Of a stretch of 64,000 bases of DNA, positions 25,873 to 36,214 are shown piece by piece (the first letter of the stretch is position 1; the number at the start of each line of letters is the position of its first letter). A program made the translations under genes and the position numbers. The DNA is from Ruminococcus sp. GTDB lineage: Bacteria; Bacillota; Clostridia; Oscillospirales; Ruminococcaceae. The DNA lies in the NCBI GenBank assembly GCA_021205185.1, contig JAJPYB010000007.1:1-64000 (forward strand), given 5' to 3'. The notes under the pieces are model-generated. The model was not told the origin of the DNA and ran no database searches. It saw only the letters and a program-made list of their open reading frames with translations.

Positions 25873-25890
25873 CTGTTAAAAAATTAACAA
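25873..25890 (+). promoter_or_regulatory. Rex operator
   Basis: CTGTTAA-AAAA-TTAACAA matches the clostridial Rex box TTGTTAA-N4-TTAACAA at all but the first base. It lies 7 bp upstream of the -35 of the rex promoter, so it supports autoregulation and NADH-responsive control of rex-adhE. No other copy of this motif was seen before the hydrogenase genes. Confidence 0.8.
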
Positions 25891-25897
25891 TCTCCTG

Positions 25898-25926
25898 TTG
25901 ACAAGGACGATTTATTGCAGTATAAT
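25898..25926 (+). promoter_or_regulatory. Consensus promoter of rex
   Basis: Exact TTGACA, 17-bp spacer, exact TATAAT. Confidence 0.85.
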
Positions 25927-25931
25927 GTAAT

Positions 25932-25963
25932 CGGTAAAAAAATACTGATTGAATTTTTTACCG
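25932..25963 (+). other. Perfect hairpin at the 5' end of the rex transcript
   Basis: 10-bp stem CGGTAAAAAA / TTTTTTACCG with a 12-nt loop, located almost exactly at the predicted transcription start. It may stabilise the 5' end of the mRNA; it is not a terminator because the T run lies inside the stem. Confidence 0.5.
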
Positions 25964-25983
25964 AGAAAATCTATGAGAGGCGG

Positions 25984-26613
25984 TTGATAATTATCGGTAA
26001 AGAGGTATCGAAGAGAACTCTTAAACGATTGCCAAATTACCTGACCTATTTAAAGAGCGAAAAATGCGGCGGAGCGATAAACATTTCAGCGCCTACCGTT
26101 GCAAGAGATTTGGGACTCAACGAGGTTCAGGTGAGAAAGGACTTAGCGATAGTAAGCCGAAGCGGCGGAAAGCCGAAAACAGGCTATCTTCTCAGCTCAT
26201 TGATTGAGGATATTGAGAGCTTTTTGGGCTATGATAATCAAAAAGACGCAATCATCGCCGGAGTTGGACATTTGGGAAGCGCATTGCTTTCATACAAGGG
26301 ATTTTCCGACTACGGAATGAATGTTGTCGCAGGATTTGACACCGACGAGAAGCTGATCGGTAAAACCGTTCATGGCAAGAAGATATACGATATATCCGAG
26401 CTTACCAAAATCGTAAAGGAGTTAAATATCCGTCTTGGTATAATAACTGTGCCGAGTGAGTTCGCTCAGCAGGTTTGTAACGAGATGGTTAAGGGCGGAA
26501 TCCTCGCTGTCTGGAATTTCGCACAGGTACAGCTTGTCGTTCCCGACGGAGTTATTGTACAAAATGAAAATATGGCAGCATCACTCGCAGTTCTGTCAGC
26601 AATGATAGACTAA
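25984..26613 (+). CDS. rex: Redox-sensing transcriptional repressor Rex
   Basis: About 209 residues. Rex senses the NADH/NAD+ ratio and represses fermentation genes when NADH is low. The N-terminal winged helix (VSKRTLKRLPNYLTYLKS; SAPTVARDLGLNEVQVRKDL) is followed by a Rossmann domain (IIAGVGHLGSALLSY; AGFDTDEKLIG). The start is uncertain. The frame is open to 25915, but that is upstream of the transcription start. The TTG at 25984 is used here, though GAGAGG lies only 3 nt before it; ATA or ATT just downstream is better spaced. A 4-codon ORF (ATG at 25973, MRGG) overlaps this region. adhE follows by 41 nt. Confidence 0.93.
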   Translation: MIIIGKEVSKRTLKRLPNYLTYLKSEKCGGAINISAPTVARDLGLNEVQVRKDLAIVSRSGGKPKTGYLLSSLIEDIESFLGYDNQKDAIIAGVGHLGSALLSYKGFSDYGMNVVAGFDTDEKLIGKTVHGKKIYDISELTKIVKELNIRLGIITVPSEFAQQVCNEMVKGGILAVWNFAQVQLVVPDGVIVQNENMAASLAVLSAMID

Positions 26614-26654
26614 ACCCAGTTTACAATATTTTTATGAATAGGAGAGATTCACTT

Positions 26655-29276
26655 ATGAGTAACAAGAAAGAAACTGCTCAAAAGACATTTGACGTTGTTG
26701 ACAATGTTGAGGCGCTTGAAGCAAGACTTGCGGAGCTTAGAGCGGCGCAAAAGGAGTTCGCAACATTTTCTCAGGAAAAGGTTGACGAGATTTTCAAAGC
26801 GGCGGCTATAGCTGCCAACAAGCAGAGAATACCGCTTGCAAAGCAGGCTGTTGCTGAAACTGGAATGGGAGTAGTTGAGGACAAGGTAATCAAGAACAAC
26901 TACGCAGCAGAACACATTTACAACGCCTATAAAAATACAAAAACCTGTGGAATTATCGAAAGAGACGAGGCTTACGGAACTATAAAAATCGCCGAGCCTA
27001 TCGGAGTTATTGCGGCGGTTATTCCTACAACTAACCCTACTTCTACCGCTATTTTTAAGTCTCTTATCGCGCTTAAAACAAGAAACGCAATTATCATTTC
27101 TCCACACCCGAGAGCTAAGGCTTGTACGATAGCTGCCGCTAAGGTGGTTCTGGACGCAGCAGTTGCAGCAGGCGCACCAAAGGGAATCATTGCATGGATT
27201 GACGTTCCTTCTCTTGAGCTTACAAATATGGTTATGAAGGAAGCTGACATTATCCTTGCTACCGGCGGACCTGGAATGGTAAAGGCAGCTTATTCAAGCG
27301 GAAAGCCAGCGCTCGGCGTTGGCGCAGGAAACACACCTGCAATCATTGACGATACTGCTGATATTAAGCTTGCGGTAAATTCAATTATTCATTCCAAGAC
27401 ATTTGACAACGGTATGATTTGTGCTTCTGAGCAGTCGGTTATCGTTTTAAACGACGTATATTCAGCTGTTAAGGCTGAGTTTAAGGCAAGAGGCTGCTAT
27501 TTCCTTACAAAGGCTGAAACTGAAAAGGTCAGAAAGACAATTATCATAAACGGTTCTGTAAACGCAAAGATCGTTGGACAGCCTGCCGCTAAGATCGCAG
27601 AGTTTGCCGGTGTCACAGTAGACCCTGATACAAAGATTCTTATCGGCGAGGTTACAAGCGTTGATATTTCTGAAGAGTTCGCTCACGAAAAGCTTTCACC
27701 AGTTCTTGCAATGTATAAGGCTAAGGACTTTGAGGACGCTATGGAAAAGGCTGACAGACTTGTACAGGACGGCGGCTACGGACACACATCCTCACTCTAT
27801 GTAAACGCTGTAACTGAAAAGGAAAAGATTGACGCATTTGCTCTCAAGATGAAAACCTGCCGTATACTTGTAAATACGCCTTCATCTCACGGCGGCATCG
27901 GCGACCTTTATAACTTCAATCTTGCTCCTTCTTTGACACTCGGCTGCGGCTCGTGGGGCGGAAACTCAGTTTCTGAGAATGTTGGAGTCAAGCACCTGTT
28001 AAATATCAAGACTGTTGCCGAGAGGAGAGAGAATATGCTTTGGTTCAGAACACCTGAAAAGGTTTACTTTAAGAAGGGCTGTTTGCCTGTTGCCCTTGAC
28101 GAGCTTAAGAATGTAATGGGCAAGAAGAGAGCGTTTATCGTTACCGACTCGTTCCTTTACAAGAACGGCTATACAAAGCCTATTGAGGATAAGCTCGATT
28201 CAATGGGAATCGTTCATACAACATTCTCAAATGTTCAGCCTGATCCGACTTTGGCAAATGCTCAGGAGGGCGCAAAGGCAATGACAGCATTCGAGCCTGA
28301 CTGTATTATCGCAATGGGCGGCGGCTCGGCAATGGACGCCGGTAAGATTATGTGGGTTCTTTACGAGCATCCGGACGCTGACTTTATGGATATGGCTATG
28401 AGATTTATAGACATTCGTAAGAGAGTTTATACATTCCCGAAAATGGGTGAAAAGGCTTACTTCATTGCAGTTCCAACCTCATCAGGTACAGGCTCTGAGG
28501 TAACTCCGTTCGCAGTTATCACAGACGAAAAGACAGGAACCAAGTATCCTTTGGCTGACTATGAGCTAATGCCAAATATGGCTATCATTGATACTGACAA
28601 TATGATGAGTGCACCGAAGGGATTAACCTCCGCTTCTGGTATCGACGCTTTAACTCACGCATTAGAGGCTTATGCTTCTGTTATGGCGACAGATTATACA
28701 GATGGTCTTGCTCTTAAGGCTATAAAGAACATCTTCACTTATCTGCCGACAGCTTATGAGAACGGCTCTGATGTAATCGCAAGAGAAAAAATGGCGGACG
28801 CTTCAACAATGGCCGGTATGGCGTTTGCAAACGCATTTTTAGGCGTTTGTCACTCAATGGCTCACAAGCTCGGCTCTTATCATCACCTTCCACACGGTGT
28901 TGCAAACGCGCTTCTCATCACAGAGGTTATGAGATTTAACGTAGCGACTGCACCGAGAAAAATGGGAACATTCTCACAGTATCAGTATCCTCATGCGCTT
29001 GAAAGATACGCCGAGTGCGCTCACTTTATCGGAATTTGCGGAAAGAACGATGAGGAAACTCTTGATAAGTTTATCGACGCTATTGAAGAGCTGAAGGCAA
29101 AGGTCGGAATCAAGAAGACAATCAAGGATTACGGAGTTGACGAAAAGTATTTCTTGGATACGCTTGATAATATGGTTGAGGACGCATTCGACGACCAGTG
29201 CACAGGTGCAAACCCGAGATATCCTCTTATGAAGGAAATCAAGGAAATGTATTTGAAGGCTTACTACGGCAAGTAA
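26655..29276 (+). CDS. adhE: Bifunctional acetaldehyde-CoA/alcohol dehydrogenase
   Basis: 873 residues. It reduces acetyl-CoA to acetaldehyde and then ethanol with NADH. The N-terminal aldehyde dehydrogenase domain (~1-430) has the catalytic Cys in MICASEQSV. The C-terminal iron-dependent alcohol dehydrogenase domain has GGGSAMDAGK and metal-binding segments SGIDALTHALEAYAS and HSMAHKLGSYHHLPHG. The ATG at 26655 has GGAGAG 8 nt upstream; the in-frame start at 26634 has none. It lies in the Rex transcription unit, so ethanol formation is likely induced at high NADH. Confidence 0.97.
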   Translation: MSNKKETAQKTFDVVDNVEALEARLAELRAAQKEFATFSQEKVDEIFKAAAIAANKQRIPLAKQAVAETGMGVVEDKVIKNNYAAEHIYNAYKNTKTCGIIERDEAYGTIKIAEPIGVIAAVIPTTNPTSTAIFKSLIALKTRNAIIISPHPRAKACTIAAAKVVLDAAVAAGAPKGIIAWIDVPSLELTNMVMKEADIILATGGPGMVKAAYSSGKPALGVGAGNTPAIIDDTADIKLAVNSIIHSKTFDNGMICASEQSVIVLNDVYSAVKAEFKARGCYFLTKAETEKVRKTIIINGSVNAKIVGQPAAKIAEFAGVTVDPDTKILIGEVTSVDISEEFAHEKLSPVLAMYKAKDFEDAMEKADRLVQDGGYGHTSSLYVNAVTEKEKIDAFALKMKTCRILVNTPSSHGGIGDLYNFNLAPSLTLGCGSWGGNSVSENVGVKHLLNIKTVAERRENMLWFRTPEKVYFKKGCLPVALDELKNVMGKKRAFIVTDSFLYKNGYTKPIEDKLDSMGIVHTTFSNVQPDPTLANAQEGAKAMTAFEPDCIIAMGGGSAMDAGKIMWVLYEHPDADFMDMAMRFIDIRKRVYTFPKMGEKAYFIAVPTSSGTGSEVTPFAVITDEKTGTKYPLADYELMPNMAIIDTDNMMSAPKGLTSASGIDALTHALEAYASVMATDYTDGLALKAIKNIFTYLPTAYENGSDVIAREKMADASTMAGMAFANAFLGVCHSMAHKLGSYHHLPHGVANALLITEVMRFNVATAPRKMGTFSQYQYPHALERYAECAHFIGICGKNDEETLDKFIDAIEELKAKVGIKKTIKDYGVDEKYFLDTLDNMVEDAFDDQCTGANPRYPLMKEIKEMYLKAYYGK

Positions 29277-29283
29277 AACACTC

Positions 29284-29312
29284 TTGCCAAGGTGCATAAG
29301 ATTTTGTATAAT
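29284..29312 (+). promoter_or_regulatory. Promoter before the kinase-like gene
   Basis: TTGCCA, 17-bp spacer, exact TATAAT. It overlaps a weak hairpin (GGCAAG / CTTGCC) after adhE. It may drive the kinase-ferredoxin-hydS-phosphatase-hydA unit independently of Rex; readthrough from adhE is also likely. Confidence 0.6.
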
Positions 29313-29377
29313 GTATGTATAATATCTGTTCGCTTTTGCGAAGGATATATATCGTCTTAATAAAGGAGGATATTGTT

Positions 29378-30127
29378 ATGAATTTTGAGAAGGTACTTGC
29401 TGTAAGAAATACTAAAACTATTTACAGAGACGGAAATACTACCGTTAAGGTATTTAACGAGGAGTACAAAAAGTACGATATTTTAAATGAGGCGCTTAAC
29501 ACCGCCAGAATTGAAGAAACAGGACTTAACATTCCAAAGGTATTGGAGGTTAAGAAAATAGAGGGCAAATGGGCTATCGTTTTGGAGTATGTCGAGGGTA
29601 AAACCCTTCAGCAGCTAATGGACGAGAACCCGGAGAAAATGGATGAGTATCTTGAAATGTTTGTTGATTTGCAGCTTGAGGTTCAATCGAAAACCTGCTT
29701 CAATTTAAACAAGCTTAAGGATAAAATGCAGGCAAAAATTTCGCAGACAGACCTCGACGCTACAACCAGATACGAGCTTCATACTCGTCTTGACGGTATG
29801 CCGAAGCACAATAAGGTTTGTCACGGAGATTTTAACCCATCTAACATTATTGTTTCTCCTGACGGCGAGTTTCATATTCTCGACTGGTCGCACGCAACTC
29901 AGGGTAACGCTTCTGCCGACGCTGCCAGAACATATCTGTTGTTTGTCCTTGCAGGAAACAGAGAGCTTGCTGAGAAGTATCTGAATATGTTCTGCGAAAA
30001 GAGCGACACAGCGAAGCAGTATGTACAGCAGTGGATGCCGATAGTAGCGGCTTCACAGTCTGTAAAGGGAAATCCTGAGGAGAGAGAGCTGCTGTTAAGT
30101 TGGGTAAATGTTGTAGATTACGAGTAA
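29378..30127 (+). CDS. Aminoglycoside phosphotransferase-fold kinase-like protein
   Basis: 249 residues. Protein kinase-like fold of the APH/choline kinase group: an N-lobe with a possible ATP-binding Lys in TVKVF, a hinge near VLEYVEGKTL, the Brenner motif CHGDFNPSNII with catalytic Asp and Asn, and metal-binding Asp in HILDWSHAT. The substrate is unknown. The ATG at 29378 has AAAGGAGG 8 nt upstream; the longer reading to 29315 is rejected. It lies between adhE and the hydrogenase genes, and a SpoIIE-type phosphatase lies three genes on, so a regulatory kinase is possible (inference). Confidence 0.85.
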   Translation: MNFEKVLAVRNTKTIYRDGNTTVKVFNEEYKKYDILNEALNTARIEETGLNIPKVLEVKKIEGKWAIVLEYVEGKTLQQLMDENPEKMDEYLEMFVDLQLEVQSKTCFNLNKLKDKMQAKISQTDLDATTRYELHTRLDGMPKHNKVCHGDFNPSNIIVSPDGEFHILDWSHATQGNASADAARTYLLFVLAGNRELAEKYLNMFCEKSDTAKQYVQQWMPIVAASQSVKGNPEERELLLSWVNVVDYE

Positions 30128-30146
30128 TCTCAGAAAGGACAGTTCA

Positions 30147-30386
30147 ATGAAAGTTACAATATGTATCGGAAGCTCCTGTCACTTAAAGGGCTCAAGACAG
30201 GTTGTCGAGGCTCTTCAGAATCACGTTAAGGAAGCCAATCTTCAGGATAAGGTTGAGCTTGGCGGCGCCTTTTGTATAGGGAACTGCCAGAACGGCGTGT
30301 CGGTGACTGTCGACGGAGTAGTTCATTCAGTAAATCCCGATAACGTAGACTCTTTCTTTGAAAACGAAATTAAGTCGAAGGTTTAA
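30147..30386 (+). CDS. Thioredoxin-fold [2Fe-2S] ferredoxin
   Basis: 79 residues. It has four Cys in the order CIGSSC (N-terminal) and CIGNC (central), the pattern of thioredoxin-like [2Fe-2S] ferredoxins and the C-terminal half of NuoE/HydC-type subunits. It probably carries electrons to or from the hydrogenase-like proteins next to it. Ribosome site GAAAGGAC, 19 nt after the kinase-like gene and 31 nt before hydS. Confidence 0.87.
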   Translation: MKVTICIGSSCHLKGSRQVVEALQNHVKEANLQDKVELGGAFCIGNCQNGVSVTVDGVVHSVNPDNVDSFFENEIKSKV

Positions 30387-30417
30387 ACCTGACATCAATT
30401 TACGGGGGAAGAGATAA

Positions 30418-32100
30418 ATGTATGGTACAAGGGTTCTTGTTTCAAAGAAAAACGATTGTAAGAATTGTTACAAATGTATTCGTTACTGCCCTATAAAAGC
30501 CATAAAGTTTTCCGACAATCAAGCGTCGATCGTTGAGGACGAGTGTATACTCTGCGGAAAGTGTTATACCGTTTGTCCTCAATCGGCGAAGGAAATCAGA
30601 AACGACGTTGATAAGGTTAAGGAGATGCTTGCGAAAGAGGAAGATGTTTTTGCAAGCATTGCTCCTTCATTTGTGGCAAATTACGAAAACATGAACATAA
30701 CGGCAGCTGAAAACGCCCTCAAAAAGCTGGGCTTTAAAGGCGCTGAGGAAACGGCTGTCGGCGCAACAATAGTAAAAAAAGAATACGACAAAATGGTAAA
30801 CGAAGGCAAGAAGAAAATTATCATTTCCTCCTGCTGCCATTCGGTAAATACGCTTATACAAAAGTATTATCCCGAAGCGCTCCCTTATCTTGCCGATATT
30901 AAATCGCCGATGCAGGCGCATTGCGAAAAGATAAAGAGAGAGCATGAAGGCGCAAAGACTGTGTTTATCGGTCCTTGCATTTCCAAAAAGGACGAAGCGG
31001 ATAAGTATCCTGATATTGTGGACGCTGTGCTTACCTTTAAGGAGCTTGACGAATGGCTTGCCGAAGAAGAAATCGAGCTTTGCGAATGCGAGGATAAGGT
31101 AGCGGGTGGAAGGGCCAGACTTTTCCCAACAACTACCGGAATTTTAAAGTCTATGGACTGCGACAGCAAGGATTATACATATATCGCAATAGACGGAATT
31201 GAAAACTGCATTGCGGCGCTCGAGGATATTAAAAACGGCGAGATGAAAAACTGCTTTATCGAAATGTCCGCTTGTGCGGGAAGCTGTATAAACGGCCCTG
31301 TTATGAGTAGAAACTCCGAGAAGCTTGTAAAGAACACGCTTGCCGTCAACAGGTATGCGCCAAAGGACGACTTCGACGTTGCTTCACCTTCAACCGCTTC
31401 GCTTAAAAAGAACATTTCGTTTGTCGGCGTTCGCAAGAATATGCCGGGAAGCAAGGCGATTGAAGAAATTTTACATAGAATGGGTAAAACTCGTCCGGAG
31501 CAGGAGTTAAACTGCGGAAGCTGCGGATATGATACCTGTCGTGAAAAAGCGGTTGCGGTGCTTCAGGGAAAAGCAAACTTAGAAATGTGTATGCCGTACC
31601 TAAAGGATAAGGCCGAGTCCTTCTCCGATACGATAATCGGAAACACTCCCAATGGAATTCTGGTATTGAATGAGGACTTTGAGGTTCAGCAGATAAATGC
31701 TGCCGCAAAATCAATAATGAATATAAAAAGCTCGGACGACGTTTTAGGAAATCCTGTTGTCAGAATTTTAGACCCTTCAAAGTTTATGCAGGTTCTTTCA
31801 AGCGGCAGGGATATCAGAAACGAAAAGGTATATCTTGCTGATTACAACAAGTATGTAGAGGAAACTATCATCTACGATAAGAGCTATCATATTATTATCG
31901 GCATTATGAGAGATGTTACCGAAAGCGAGCTTGAGCACGAGAAGCGAATCGAGGACGCACATAATACTGTTGAAATTACCGACAAGGTTATCGACAAGCA
32001 GATGCGTGTAGTTCAGGAAATAGCTTCACTTTTGGGAGAAACAACGGCAGAAACAAAGATTGCGCTTACCAAGTTAAAGGAGAACTTAACTAATGAATAA
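30418..32100 (+). CDS. hydS: Sensory-type [FeFe] hydrogenase with PAS domain (HydS)
   Basis: 560 residues. Order: two 4Fe-4S ferredoxin motifs (CKNCYKCIRYCP, CILCGKCYTVCP), an H-cluster domain (~75-310), a further 4Fe-4S module (CGSCGYDTC plus a Cys ~20 residues on, ~365-395), a PAS domain (~395-495) and a C-terminal helix. The H-cluster motifs are variant: SSCCHSV for TSCCPxW, GPCISKKDEA, and MSACAGSCING for MxCxxGCxxG. This layout is that of group C sensory hydrogenases, proposed H2 sensors in Ruminococcus albus and others. The final 8 nt overlap the phosphatase gene, which suggests that the two act together. Confidence 0.88.
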   Translation: MYGTRVLVSKKNDCKNCYKCIRYCPIKAIKFSDNQASIVEDECILCGKCYTVCPQSAKEIRNDVDKVKEMLAKEEDVFASIAPSFVANYENMNITAAENALKKLGFKGAEETAVGATIVKKEYDKMVNEGKKKIIISSCCHSVNTLIQKYYPEALPYLADIKSPMQAHCEKIKREHEGAKTVFIGPCISKKDEADKYPDIVDAVLTFKELDEWLAEEEIELCECEDKVAGGRARLFPTTTGILKSMDCDSKDYTYIAIDGIENCIAALEDIKNGEMKNCFIEMSACAGSCINGPVMSRNSEKLVKNTLAVNRYAPKDDFDVASPSTASLKKNISFVGVRKNMPGSKAIEEILHRMGKTRPEQELNCGSCGYDTCREKAVAVLQGKANLEMCMPYLKDKAESFSDTIIGNTPNGILVLNEDFEVQQINAAAKSIMNIKSSDDVLGNPVVRILDPSKFMQVLSSGRDIRNEKVYLADYNKYVEETIIYDKSYHIIIGIMRDVTESELEHEKRIEDAHNTVEITDKVIDKQMRVVQEIASLLGETTAETKIALTKLKENLTNE

Positions 32101-33265
32101 TCTTTGTACTGAGATAGGCTACCACAGCATAAATAAATACGGCGAACAGCTTTGCGGCGACCATATTGAAGTAATCGAGCAGGGTGAAAACTCCTTCGTA
32201 ATGGTTTTAGCTGACGGACTCGGAAGCGGAGTTAAGGCTTGTATTTTGTCAACTCTTACCTCGAAGATTATTTCAACTATGATGGCAGCGAATATGAGCG
32301 TTGAGGACTGCGTTTCAACAATAGCTGCAACGCTGCCTGTTTGCGACGTGAGAAAAATAGCCTATTCTACCTTTACAATTATTCGGGTAGTCAACAACGA
32401 GGAGGCTGAAATAATTCAATATGACAATCCTCACGTTATTCTTCTGAGAAACGGAAAAAACTACGACTACCCACAAACTGTTACTGAAATTGGCGGAAAG
32501 CAAATTTACAGAGCAAAGCTAAAGCTTGAGCTTGACGACGTTTTTATTGCAATGAGCGACGGCGCAATATACGCAGGCGTTGGTATGGAGCTGAATTACG
32601 GCTGGCAGAGGGAAAATATAATCGACTTTGCCGAAGCGTTTTATACGAAGGAATACACAGCTAAAACAATAGCTACGCTTATTCTTGACGAGTGCCATCG
32701 GCTTTACGGCTACCACGCAGGCGACGATACAACGGTAGGTGCGATAAAAATCAGGAAAAGAGAGTCTATCAATCTTATGATAGGACCGCCTTCAAAGCCT
32801 GAGGAGCTTAAAAAAATGCACACCCTTTTCTTTTCAAAGGAGGGCAAGCATATAGTCTGCGGCGGAACCACTTCAAAGCTCGCGGCGGAGTATTTAGGCA
32901 AGGAGGTTGTACCTCTGCTTGATTATTTCGACCCTGAAATACCGCCGATTGCAAAAATCGAGGGAGTAGACCTTACAACAGAGGGCGTTATCACAATAAG
33001 CAAGGTGCTTGAAAACGCAAAAAGCTACCTCGACTCTAACGAGGAGTATATGCAATGGTCGAGCAAGAAGGACGGCGCTTCGAGAATCTCCCGAATGCTG
33101 TTTGAGGAGGCTACCGACATAAACTTCTTTGTCGGAATGGCTGTAAACCCGGCTCACCAGAATCCCAATCTGCCGATAAATTTCAACATTAAGATGAACC
33201 TTGTCGGCGAGCTTTCAAAGTGCTTGAAGCAAATGGGAAAAAGAATAAAGGTAAGCTACTTTTAA
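32093..33265 (+). CDS. SpoIIE/PP2C-type phosphatase
   Basis: 390 residues. The N-terminal ~220 residues form a SpoIIE-type PP2C domain with the metal-binding motifs VLADGLGSGVKA, AMSDGAIYAGV and GDDTTVGAIKI. The C-terminal ~170 residues have no recognised domain; in them, VCGGTTSKLAAEYLGK resembles a ligand or nucleotide loop. The start is inside the hydS stop (ATGAATAA), so its synthesis is coupled to HydS. It is probably the output partner of the sensor: H2 or redox state read by HydS would change dephosphorylation of an unknown protein. The substrate is not identified. Confidence 0.87.
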   Translation: MNNLCTEIGYHSINKYGEQLCGDHIEVIEQGENSFVMVLADGLGSGVKACILSTLTSKIISTMMAANMSVEDCVSTIAATLPVCDVRKIAYSTFTIIRVVNNEEAEIIQYDNPHVILLRNGKNYDYPQTVTEIGGKQIYRAKLKLELDDVFIAMSDGAIYAGVGMELNYGWQRENIIDFAEAFYTKEYTAKTIATLILDECHRLYGYHAGDDTTVGAIKIRKRESINLMIGPPSKPEELKKMHTLFFSKEGKHIVCGGTTSKLAAEYLGKEVVPLLDYFDPEIPPIAKIEGVDLTTEGVITISKVLENAKSYLDSNEEYMQWSSKKDGASRISRMLFEEATDINFFVGMAVNPAHQNPNLPINFNIKMNLVGELSKCLKQMGKRIKVSYF

Positions 33266-33297
33266 TCGGGCAAAAGCTGAAAATAAGAGGATGATTT

Positions 33298-34731
33298 ATG
33301 AAAACACGGAAATTTGATACACAGGTTCAATACTTAAAGTACAAGGTGCTGCGTGAGGTTGCTCGTCACGCATGGGACGACAATTTAGTATTTGAGCATT
33401 TTAACGATATTGCGAAAACTGTCGTTAAGGGCAAGGAGCCTACAATGCGCTGCTGTATTTACAAGGAGCGAGCTATCGTTTCGGAGCGAATTAAGCTTGC
33501 TTGCGGCGGAGACAAGTCAAATCCCAACGTAATAGAGGTTATTGACATTGCCTGCGACGAATGTCCTTTAGGCGGCTACAAGGTTACGGAATCCTGTAGA
33601 GGCTGTATCGCTCACAGGTGTGAGGACGCTTGTAAGGTAGGCGCTATATCGTTTGACAAAAATCAAAAGGCTGTTATTGACAAGGACAAGTGCGTAAATT
33701 GTGGAAAGTGCGCTGCCGCTTGCCCGTATTCGGCAATTCAGGACTTTAAACGCCCCTGCGAGAGGTCCTGCAAGGTTGGCGCTATCAGCATGGATAAGGA
33801 AACCTATGCCGCAAGCATCGACAACGACAAGTGCATTTCCTGCGGAGCGTGCGTTTATATGTGTCCGTTCGGAGCTTGTATGGATAAGTCGAGCATTACT
33901 GACGTCATTAAAATTTTAAAGGAAAGCGACGGCAACAAAAACTACAAGGTTTACGCTGTTACTGCTCCTGCTATCAACGCTCAGTTTACTTATGCAAAAA
34001 CCGGTCAGGTTGTAGCGGCAATTAAGCGGCTTGGCTTCCACAGCGTTGTTGAAGCGGCTCTTGGAGCTGATATGGTAGCGCTCGAGGAGTCGGCGGAGCT
34101 TGCAGAAAAAGGATTTTTAACAACAAGCTGCTGCCCGGCGTTCGTAGAGTATATTCACAAATTCTATCCGGCTCTTGTGCCGAACATTTCGCACAACCTG
34201 TCTCCAATGGCGAAAATTTCACAGTACATAAAAACAATAGATCCGACCTCGAAGATTGTCTTTATCGGTCCTTGTACCGCTAAGAAAATGGAAATCAAGC
34301 GTGATGAGGTAAAGGACTTAGTCGATTATGTTTTGACATTCGAGGAGCTTCAGGCTTTAATTGATTCAAGAGATATTCCAATCGCCGAGCTTGAGGAGGA
34401 AGCGCTTGACAACGCTTCGTACTTCGGTAGAATTTTTGCAAGAAGCGGAGGAGTTACCGACGCTGTCAAGCAGGCTATCAAGGAGCAGGGCTTGAATATC
34501 GAGCTTAACCCTGTCGTTTGCAACGGAATTGAGGAGTGCAAAAAGCCGTTGCTGCTCGCTTCAAAGGGGATAAGAAAGAACAACTTTATTGAGGGTATGG
34601 CTTGCGTTGGCGGCTGTATCGGCGGAGCAGGAAACCTGACCCACGAGGAGAAGGACGCCAAGCAGGTTGATAAGTACGCTGAGCAGGCTCTTGAAAAGAC
34701 TATCTCTGACGCTGTTTCAATGCTCAGGTAG
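33298..34731 (+). CDS. hydA2: [FeFe] hydrogenase, group B-type monomer (HydA2/HsfB-like)
   Basis: 477 residues. An N-terminal region (~1-95) has a CDECP site, then Cys-rich ferredoxin segments (CRGCIAHRCEDAC, CVNCGKCAAACP, CERSC, CISCGACVYMCP). The catalytic domain has all three H-cluster motifs in canonical form: TTSCCPAF, GPCTAKKME and GMACVGGCIGG. It should reduce protons or oxidise H2 with ferredoxin. It follows the phosphatase by 32 nt with GAGGATGA as ribosome site. Maturation genes hydEFG are not in the window. No clear terminator follows. Confidence 0.92.
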   Translation: MKTRKFDTQVQYLKYKVLREVARHAWDDNLVFEHFNDIAKTVVKGKEPTMRCCIYKERAIVSERIKLACGGDKSNPNVIEVIDIACDECPLGGYKVTESCRGCIAHRCEDACKVGAISFDKNQKAVIDKDKCVNCGKCAAACPYSAIQDFKRPCERSCKVGAISMDKETYAASIDNDKCISCGACVYMCPFGACMDKSSITDVIKILKESDGNKNYKVYAVTAPAINAQFTYAKTGQVVAAIKRLGFHSVVEAALGADMVALEESAELAEKGFLTTSCCPAFVEYIHKFYPALVPNISHNLSPMAKISQYIKTIDPTSKIVFIGPCTAKKMEIKRDEVKDLVDYVLTFEELQALIDSRDIPIAELEEEALDNASYFGRIFARSGGVTDAVKQAIKEQGLNIELNPVVCNGIEECKKPLLLASKGIRKNNFIEGMACVGGCIGGAGNLTHEEKDAKQVDKYAEQALEKTISDAVSMLR

Positions 34732-34874: not shown

Positions 34875-34903
34875 TTGATTTTTTTGTGACATTTTGCTAT
34901 AAT
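34875..34903 (+). promoter_or_regulatory. Promoter of prepilin gene
   Basis: TTGATT, 17-bp spacer, exact TATAAT, ending 70 nt before the TTG start. Confidence 0.65.
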
Positions 34904-34973: not shown

Positions 34974-35384
34974 TTGAAAAAGCTTAAAGAAATGAAGAAG
35001 AATAAGAAGGGCTTTACCCTCGTTGAGGTTATTGTTGTACTCGTAATTTTAGCTATTATGGCGGCTGTTTTAATTCCGTCGCTCGTTGGATATATTGACA
35101 TGGCTAACGAGAATACTATTATTTCAGAAACTCGTAATATCACAACAGCAGTTCAGACATTAGCTTCAGAGGCTTATGCTAAGGATTCGGATGCTACTAT
35201 CACAATTGGTGATGATGATACTTATACCATTACTTATGATGAGATCATGGAGCTTTGCGAAATTGACGGTATTGATAGCACTACACTATCTGTTACATTT
35301 GAAACAGATTCTGCTAAGATTGAATCCCTTGAGTGGACAAACGACGGTAAGACTTGTACATATCCTGGATATGAAGTAAACTAA
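34974..35384 (+). CDS. Type IV pilin-like prepilin
   Basis: 136 residues. A short basic leader (KKLKEMKKNKKG) is followed by the prepilin peptidase site G/FTLVEV and a hydrophobic helix (VIVVLVILAIMAAVLIPSLVGYI), then a small acidic C-terminal domain with a single Cys-containing end. Cleavage between G15 and F16 is predicted. The TTG start is supported by TTAAGGAGG 10 nt upstream. No pilus assembly ATPase, membrane protein or peptidase gene lies nearby, so it must use machinery encoded elsewhere. It could be a pseudopilin or an adhesion pilin. Confidence 0.87.
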   Translation: MKKLKEMKKNKKGFTLVEVIVVLVILAIMAAVLIPSLVGYIDMANENTIISETRNITTAVQTLASEAYAKDSDATITIGDDDTYTITYDEIMELCEIDGIDSTTLSVTFETDSAKIESLEWTNDGKTCTYPGYEVN

Positions 35385-35551: not shown

Positions 35552-35827
35552 ATGAATTTCTACACAGTAAGAGATTTAAGGACAACGCCAAAGAGCATCT
35601 GGGAAAATTTAGCCTCTGACGGCGAAGCAGTTATCACAAATAATGGGCGACCAATGGCGCTTTTGGTGGATATTTCAGAAGGCGATTTTGAAGAAACTAT
35701 TAAAGCTATACGTCAGGCGAAAGCAATGATAGCTTTTAATTCTATGCGAACTAAGGCTGCCGGGCAGGGATTTATGAGCGACGAGGACATTCAGGCTGAG
35801 ATTGAAGCGGCTCGTAAAGGGGAATAG
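35552..35827 (+). CDS. Phd/YefM-type antitoxin
   Basis: 91 residues. The N-terminal Phd/YefM DNA-binding fold begins FYTVRDLRTTPKSIWENL with the TNNGRPMALLV strand. The C-terminal ~35 residues are charged and probably wrap the toxin. It starts after GGAGGTGAT and a short leader. The toxin gene begins 3 nt after its stop, the usual antitoxin-first order. It likely represses its own promoter. Confidence 0.85.
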   Translation: MNFYTVRDLRTTPKSIWENLASDGEAVITNNGRPMALLVDISEGDFEETIKAIRQAKAMIAFNSMRTKAAGQGFMSDEDIQAEIEAARKGE

Positions 35828-35830
35828 TAT

Positions 35831-36214
35831 ATGCTTGTGGTTATTGACACGAATGTTTTGGTTTCTGCGCTATGGTCGAGAAACGGCGCACCAGCAAAAA
35901 TAATAAATATGGTGCTGAACGGAAGACTTATTCCTTGCTATGACTGGCGGATTTTATGCGAATATCGAGAGGTTTTGCTGCGCCCTAAATTTGGCTTTAC
36001 ACAAAACGAAGTGAACGCACTTCTCGATTGGTTTGAAAGCTTCGGCAGATCGGTGGTAGCTGAACCTTGCAAGGAGTGCTTTATAGATGAGAGTGATAAG
36101 AAGTTTTACGAGGTAGCGAAGTTTTGTAACGCAACGCTTATAACCGGCAACATCAAGCATTTTCCAAGCGAGCCGAATATAGTTACAGTCAGCGAATTTT
36201 TAGCTGAATATTAA
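35831..36214 (+). CDS. PIN-domain toxin (COG1569-type)
   Basis: 127 residues. The PIN-domain RNase has acidic residues in VVIDTNVLVSAL, the central CEYREVLLRPKF helix and the late LITGNIKHFP segment with its conserved Asn/Asp site. It matches putative toxin components of PIN-family toxin-antitoxin systems. Target RNA unknown. Ribosome site AAAGGGGA, 3-nt gap after the antitoxin. Confidence 0.87.
   Translation: MLVVIDTNVLVSALWSRNGAPAKIINMVLNGRLIPCYDWRILCEYREVLLRPKFGFTQNEVNALLDWFESFGRSVVAEPCKECFIDESDKKFYEVAKFCNATLITGNIKHFPSEPNIVTVSEFLAEY

Follow-up and report, generated by a model that had tools for sequence, protein, structure and literature searches.

A putative two-protein H2 switch formed by a sensory [FeFe] hydrogenase and its neighbouring PPM phosphatase in a Ruminococcus rex-adhE-hydrogenase cluster

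In a 64,000-nt stretch of Ruminococcus sp. DNA (GenBank assembly GCA_021205185.1, contig JAJPYB010000007.1, positions 1 to 64,000; hereafter the window), a cluster at 25873-34731 carries, all on the plus strand, a Rex operator, a promoter-like site, rex, adhE and the genes for an APH-fold kinase, a [2Fe-2S] ferredoxin, the hydrogenase HydS, a SpoIIE-type PPM phosphatase and a group B [FeFe] hydrogenase. Our comparison across genomes reveals the phosphatase as the steady partner of HydS, usually together with the ferredoxin, and we put at roughly 0.55 the probability that HydS and the phosphatase form a split PAS-helix-phosphatase H2 switch in a Rex-repressed operon with adhE and the group B hydrogenase. 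H2 would be detected at the H-cluster of HydS, and the change would pass via a four-cysteine FeS domain and a PAS domain to a C-terminal helix, which would grip the switch helices of the separate phosphatase as an in trans equivalent of the linker helix of RsbP, RsbU and SpoIIE. With little H2 present, the phosphatase would be kept off by HydS; at high H2, it would be free to dephosphorylate a phosphoprotein, and expression of adhE and the ferredoxin-linked hydrogenase would follow, with Rex as a second input gating for NADH. The anatomy, pairing and covariation on which this model builds come from the present analysis. The route from H2 sensing by group C [FeFe] hydrogenases to gene expression bears on the choice between acetate plus H2 and ethanol in fermenters of the rumen and gut.

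Among 148 genomes of the family, a full phosphatase occurs in 62, every one of which also has the C-terminal stretch of HydS; one further genome, the 63rd, has this stretch at a contig end (phosphatase matches above 140 bits were counted; in genome G034 helix and phosphatase are on two contigs). With the phosphatase as query, hydS stands just upstream in 30 of 30 loci, window included, and it is present in all 20 further loci with more distant phosphatases, among them L077, which dropped out of the score comparison below on account of an over-long open frame. The end of hydS lies within 30 nt of the phosphatase start, or overlaps it, in 59 of 59 loci with the start in view, a set that includes the window and some near-identical loci (five groups at 95% or above among 57 phosphatases compared). 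In 43 of these the two genes overlap by exactly 8 nt, the remainder ranging from a 30-nt gap to a 20-nt overlap. Across the phylum, where 40 regions were chosen by hand among 121 genomes (20 of them mainly because of second or short copies and the other 20 to give a spread), hydS precedes all 38 phosphatase copies, and three regions hold the C-terminal domain of the phosphatase only. Likewise, the phosphatase follows hydS in 29 of the 30 named loci fetched with HydS as query, the contig of the last (L066) ending in hydS. The original prediction took hydS and the phosphatase for one signalling unit on account of their overlap; the overlap is indeed there (8 nt, 32093-32100), and the signalling pair is supported by the adjacency in 59 of 59 loci and by the expression of the cluster in R. 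albus. In that organism, co-culture with an H2 consumer lowers expression of the eight-gene cluster 111-fold, which led the authors to suggest that H2 is sensed directly and that the phosphatase subunit may modify regulators (PMC6776011; this and all other papers are cited from excerpts of their text). One genome of the window's own genus (G074) has the adhE-kinase pair but matches neither the HydS helix nor the phosphatase; gain or loss of the H2 module within the genus is therefore probable.

By its H-cluster cysteines, four-cysteine FeS domain and PAS domain, HydS appears to be a group C-type sensory [FeFe] hydrogenase. C140, C187, C286 and C290 are invariant in 24 aligned sequences and align with those of HydA1, PF04060 and the PAS family PF13426 score 41.8 and 30.1 bits (cut-offs 23 and 27), and the protein stays under the cut-off for both TIGR04105 and TIGR02512. 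The PAS domain ends in a DIT-type motif with an invariant D499, as described for PAS ends in PMC3183031, RsbP itself having no DIT motif according to the excerpted text. No stretch of 39 residues in HydS is more conserved than the ensuing 517-555 (0.91 vs 0.67 overall, 0.66 in PAS and 0.67 in the H domain), which is predicted to be helical. As a degenerate histidine-kinase helix this stretch was rejected, Pfam giving no support and a best E of 0.025 to an unrelated family.

The phosphatase keeps the metal-binding residues Asp23, Asp41, Asp156, Asp211 and Asp212 invariant in 48 sequences, and scores 36.8 bits against the sporulation SpoIIE equivalog TIGR02865, far under the cut-off of 490.8. 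It shares the PPM fold and metal residues with RsbP, RsbU and SpoIIE, and starts at the catalytic domain; the PAS domain with DIT-type end and a probable helix behind it likewise recall these proteins. It differs in that sensor plus linker and phosphatase are two polypeptides, in an extra C-terminal domain and in that the search for a dedicated STAS substrate found none. In PPM phosphatases, control by linker or regulatory helices is exerted via the switch helices (PMC12143880, PMC5468089), and the SpoIIE switch-helix residues used in our alignment were taken from the latter.

We also compared how the parts of the two proteins vary together. In 57 pairs outside the profile alignments, helix score follows phosphatase score with a Spearman coefficient of 0.91, or 0.83 after removal of the H-domain and PAS scores; to this relation the H domain adds 0.25 and PAS -0.10. 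Three of these pairs (L180, L200, L201) have helix scores of 5-12 and the most divergent phosphatases. For distances, 78 of 85 pairs were kept, incomplete domains and HydS proteins without a recognisable helix being dropped; L041 (near-identical) and L009-L038 (short) are not in the set, and two groups of near-identical rows, of four and two, were left. Here helix distance follows phosphatase distance with a partial coefficient of 0.64, and the helix is tied to the H domain by 0.05 and to PAS by 0.08 once the phosphatase is removed (41 and 12 of 199 permutations as high). Sliding segments along HydS peak over the last 40 residues (0.66-0.67) and give at most 0.27 where they end by residue 520. 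Along the phosphatase, all 78 pairs give a peak at 41-90 (0.34-0.44) and a smaller one at 341-370; because the SpoIIE alignment puts residues 43-91 at SpoIIE 630-678, the larger peak coincides with the switch-helix stretch. Of six two-copy genomes fetched, five differ in score and one ties; in each of the five, a single copy leads in both phosphatase and helix score and trails in H-domain score.

Covariation of this kind could also stem from joint exchange of adjacent DNA, namely the 3' end of hydS with the phosphatase gene, with no contact between the proteins. The genes usually overlap, so that tracts can be shared, and a single ancient duplication may underlie all five informative two-copy genomes. 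However, over all pairs the coupling jumps from 0.11 at HydS 481-520 to 0.66 at 521-560, with no gradual rise along PAS, and the conservation of the helix is extreme. We hold such an exchange to be an unlikely explanation.

Several further observations weigh against the split-switch reading. The H domain (0.23) and PAS (0.25) are still tied to the phosphatase, with 0 of 199 permutations as high. In the 44 family and named sequences, the helix (0.43) ranks below HydS 381-420 (0.47), with phosphatase 331-360 and 71-100 on top; in the 34 phylum sequences the helix is on top (0.60), yet phosphatase 1-30 leads. In three of the 38 phylum copies (L180, L200, L201), HydS has no recognisable helix and sits beside a divergent phosphatase, and L191 carries tandem helix-bearing hydS genes with a ferredoxin gene between, of which only the second directly precedes the phosphatase. 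A HydS-phosphatase fusion was absent from the listed frames, the longest of which reach 628 amino acids for HydS and 526 for the phosphatase. The proposed HydS-phosphatase contact is a statistical one and the C-terminal helix a prediction; for an RsbP-like seating of the linker helix on the switch helices, what was observed is covariation.

What the phosphatase may act on was addressed in the genome of the window, which measures 1.75 Mb, carries the cluster on contig C9 and also encodes hydABC and the maturase hydG. A search for a STAS and RsbW-like target pair returned a single STAS and a single HATPase_c_2 match over cut-off, next to each other, and two weaker HATPase matches. We read the adjoining STAS and HATPase_c_2 genes as spoIIA and rejected a dedicated pair as target; that the one STAS protein adjoins a HATPase partner, which leaves no obvious phosphatase substrate, also speaks against our model. 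A small HATPase_c (GHKL) gene lies inside the hydC-hydB-hydA operon of this genome (L203, 2013-2513; genome G000, contig C8, 174512-175012), and its product is a possible kinase opposing the phosphatase; a co-occurrence search for it at 1e-10 gave 7 of 148 genomes and was too insensitive to judge by. The C-terminal domain of the phosphatase is matched in 121 of 398 phylum genomes. Pfam yields a best E of 0.17-0.21 for three of four members and none for the fourth, and the PDB one weak match, to a phosphoheptose isomerase (E 0.038). In L171, L173 and L174 this domain stands alone, as a frame of 156-159 amino acids directly behind an apparent bifurcating-hydrogenase hydA, so called from its size and Fe-S matches. 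Tentatively, and with somewhat less confidence than for the switch itself, we propose that one switch is laid out in two proteins, the linker helix of HydS driving a linkerless phosphatase whose new C-terminal domain would pick a non-STAS substrate or sense a second signal.

The adjoining kinase has been proposed as the output of HydS, with the phosphatase reversing its action (Zheng et al. for R. albus, as cited in PMC5707799). Its gene does lie between adhE and the ferredoxin gene in 10 of the 30 named hydS loci, R. albus included, and always behind adhE. Nevertheless, across the 148 genomes, 46 of which have a kinase match at 1e-30, kinase and phosphatase are independent (21 with both, 25 with the kinase only, 41 with the phosphatase only, 61 with neither; p = 0.59). 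In 30 loci fetched out of 52 kinase matches, window included, adhE is upstream on the same strand in 26 and hydS downstream in 8, and the protein-kinase family PF00069 scores 25.3 bits, below its cut-off of 31.7, while the APH family PF01636 is above its own. On co-occurrence and neighbourhood we thus rejected the kinase as HydS output, a role that we consider very improbable, and the place given to it in the H2 unit by the original prediction is not upheld. The kinase looks like a companion of adhE, with or without hydS, and perhaps acts on AdhE or a small metabolite. Across L090-L118 and the window (29378-30127) its gene goes with adhE whether hydS is present or absent; in L111 and L113 a further alcohol-dehydrogenase-like stretch lies between the two.

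A second possibility is that expression is governed by Rex and NADH alone, while HydS and the phosphatase act elsewhere or no more than fine-tune. The predicted Rex operator is present, ahead of a good promoter. Sites with at most one mismatch number four in the whole genome, none better, compared with 1.7 on average in six Markov simulations of genome length and window composition, and all four precede redox or carbon genes, the other three standing before an Fe-type alcohol dehydrogenase, PEP carboxykinase and aconitase. Since such sites are few and are so placed, Rex control of the rex-adhE-hyd operon appears credible from sequence. Low H2 may also lower NADH, so that the co-culture result in R. 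albus fits Rex as well as HydS. On the other hand, an operator with at most two mismatches occurs within 330 nt before rex in one of 11 other rex loci, the near-identical L041, and a looser consensus gave no further sites before rex among these 11. Elsewhere, such operators precede adhE-like genes in 4 of 13 cases, the ferredoxin gene in 1 of 33, hydS in 0 of 30 and the last hydrogenase gene in 0 of 28; an operator common to the relatives was accordingly rejected. Furthermore, rex is found in 11 of the 30 named hydS loci, with none in view in 19, and in Thermoanaerobacterium the rex transcript rose with adhE in high-ethanol strains, the opposite of simple Rex repression (PMC5707799). Rex as sole regulator is therefore doubtful, and we retain it as second input beside the HydS-phosphatase switch.

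Finally, HydS could be a working enzyme that swaps electrons with the small ferredoxin, PAS and phosphatase then reading the redox state and not H2 itself. Its H-cluster cysteines and the proton-transfer cysteine C139, placed by alignment with HydA1, are kept in all 24 aligned sequences, compared with 17% of sensory sequences for the latter residue (PMC10055695), and of the 27 named loci with the upstream side of hydS in view, 26 have a ferredoxin gene there, L061 being the exception. Conversely, several phylum regions have no ferredoxin gene adjoining hydS, and the PAS-helix-phosphatase pairing points to signalling, though it is compatible with redox as the signal. We regard this as one of the less probable accounts. 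HydS of Thermotoga maritima, a group C protein, resembles that of the window in its H-cluster domain, C-terminal FeS site and PAS domain, but has Ala at the proton-transfer position (PMC10055695).

The direction of the proposed switch was taken from genetics in Thermoanaerobacterium, where deletion of hfsA or hfsB raised the adhE transcript and ethanol, deletion of hfsC or hfsD did not, and deletion of the whole hfs operon did not substantially raise ethanol (PMC5707799). As we read them, these phenotypes suggest, by analogy, that the phosphatase is kept in check by the sensor. The authors themselves call the effect a regulatory phenomenon, possibly mediated by Rex and another gene that they name. 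Three of their results detract from our interpretation: hfsD is also needed, and deletion of hfsA gave high ethanol despite a lower hfsC transcript, neither being explained by sensor restraint, and the adhE transcript did not account for all of the change in enzyme. In likeness to the window, hfsABCD comprises a HydS-type hfsB, a phosphatase hfsC and a HydA2-like hfsD, with a genetic tie to adhE (PMC5707799, PMC11837493); by contrast, hfsA has no counterpart in the window cluster, and adhE is not described in the hfs operon in the excerpted text. Also to be held against the model, it is from the papers' descriptions that HfsB and HfsC are taken as homologues of the window proteins. The first and last links of the model, H2 binding and the output on adhE and hydrogenase, are drawn from other organisms; the helix contact, the sign of the H2 effect and the window behaving like the published organisms are what we infer.

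The cluster as such is not new. As the original prediction noted for Ruminococcus albus, its type is already in print, and hfsB-hfsC-hfsD of Thermoanaerobacterium is a counterpart. The unit of R. albus 7, from Zheng et al. 2014, reportedly runs rex-aad-kinase-hydS-phosphatase-hydA2. In R. albus KH2T6 (L053) the order is rex, adhE, kinase, two ferredoxins, hydS, phosphatase and hydrogenase, the same as in the window except for the second ferredoxin; HydS is 57%, the phosphatase 62% and the hydrogenase 67% identical, and Rex only 44%. The window further differs in its adhE-kinase gap with a promoter-like site, and L053 in a LysR gene upstream of rex. The R. albus hydrogenase is called group A1 in PMC6776011, whereas that of the window scores as group B (TIGR04105) and stays below the group A model TIGR02512 with 176.9 bits (cut-off 405.95), so that the term canonical, applied to it earlier, does not fit. 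The nearest named locus (L041, a Ruminococcus sp. metagenome-assembled genome) has a HydS 98% identical to that of the window. L055 and L057 show only rex, ferredoxin, hydS, phosphatase and hydrogenase, and in L042-L044, L046 and L047 the hydrogenase comes ahead of the ferredoxin; in the phylum set, several hydS-phosphatase copies sit beside an apparent hydABC, as judged from size and Fe-S matches. In the open-access literature searched we did not meet the one-to-one pairing, the helix covariation or the independence of the kinase; subscription papers lay outside this search, which is therefore no proof that these three findings are unpublished.

Beside the hydS cluster or within two genes of it, a LysR-type regulator is encoded in 9 of the 30 named loci (L045, L046, L052, L053, L057, L061, L066, L067 and L068). 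These proteins are mostly 36-50% identical to each other, and the copy in the window's genome (contig C8, 220398) is 50% identical to that of L067. Of the 148 genomes, 48 have LysR, and in 30 of these the phosphatase is present too (p = 0.0007); no copy lies near the window. LysR is a candidate for the transcriptional output.

The features of the cluster are listed in Table 1; all seven genes lie where the original prediction had placed them on the plus strand, and each identity is backed by family searches. Intergenic gaps are 19 to 32 nt, apart from the hydS/phosphatase overlap and 101 nt between adhE and the kinase gene. From ribosome-binding sites, TTG at 25984 and ATG at 26655 are the more likely starts of rex and adhE. 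The promoter-like site at 29284 had been taken as a mark of a single unit, for which it is weak evidence, since relatives do not share it: adhE-kinase gaps of -1 to 18 nt leave no room for a promoter in 9 of 9 named relatives other than L041. Among the family kinase loci, gaps above 100 nt exist, with sites matching 10 of 12 bases in L096, L108, L111 and L115; in the seven hydS-linked loci that show both gene ends, such a site occurs only in the window (11/12) and L108 (10/12). Sites matching at least 11 of 12 bases number five in 12 kb, compared with a mean of 0.175 in 40 Markov simulations, and two of the five (34406, 35095) fall within genes. The 29284 promoter may still be real in this organism, though no mark of the unit.

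Table 1. Positions in the window of the cluster genes, control sites and protein segments discussed in the text
Feature	Position	Strand	Basis
Rex operator CTGTTAAAAAATTAACAA	25873..25890	+	1 mismatch to TTGTTAANNNNTTAACAA in 14 specified bases
Sigma-70-like promoter TTGACA-17-TATAAT for rex	25898..25926	+	12/12 consensus bases
rex, redox-sensing repressor	25984..26613	+	NF003994 274.6 bits, cut-off 130; TTG start inferred, mechanical open reading frame from 25915
adhE, bifunctional acetaldehyde/alcohol dehydrogenase	26634..29276	+	NF010378 1385.9 bits, cut-off 951
Promoter-like site TTGCCA-17-TATAAT between adhE and kinase gene	29284..29312	+	11/12 consensus bases; also in L041
APH-fold kinase	29378..30127	+	PF01636 48.8 bits, cut-off 23.2
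Thioredoxin-like [2Fe-2S] ferredoxin	30147..30386	+	PF01257 35.2 bits, cut-off 24.8
hydS: two 4Fe-4S sites, H-cluster domain, four-cysteine FeS domain, PAS, predicted C-terminal helix	30418..32100	+	PF02906, PF04060, PF13426, PF14697 above cut-off
HydS 517-555, near-invariant C-terminal stretch, predicted helix and proposed phosphatase contact	31966..32082	+	conservation and covariation peak
SpoIIE-type PPM phosphatase with C-terminal domain without Pfam family	32093..33265	+	PF07228 48 bits, cut-off 25
Phosphatase 43-91, aligned with SpoIIE switch helices (SpoIIE 630-678)	32219..32365	+	SpoIIE alignment, D41 = SpoIIE D628
Phosphatase C-terminal domain, residues 226-390	32768..33262	+	no Pfam family
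Group B monomeric [FeFe] hydrogenase	33298..34731	+	TIGR04105 576.8 bits, cut-off 450

Directly after the cluster, at 34974-35384, lies a pilin-like gene with an N-terminal methylation motif (PF07963) and a promoter-like site of its own at 34875. Two adjoining small genes follow at 35552-36214, which we take to resemble an antitoxin and PIN-domain toxin pair.

In summary, our comparison names the phosphatase as the steady partner of HydS and sets the kinase aside as a companion of adhE. It singles out some 40 HydS residues and some 50 phosphatase residues as a putative contact. If true, the two-protein switch would supply the output step that group C H2 sensing has lacked, in much of the phylum.

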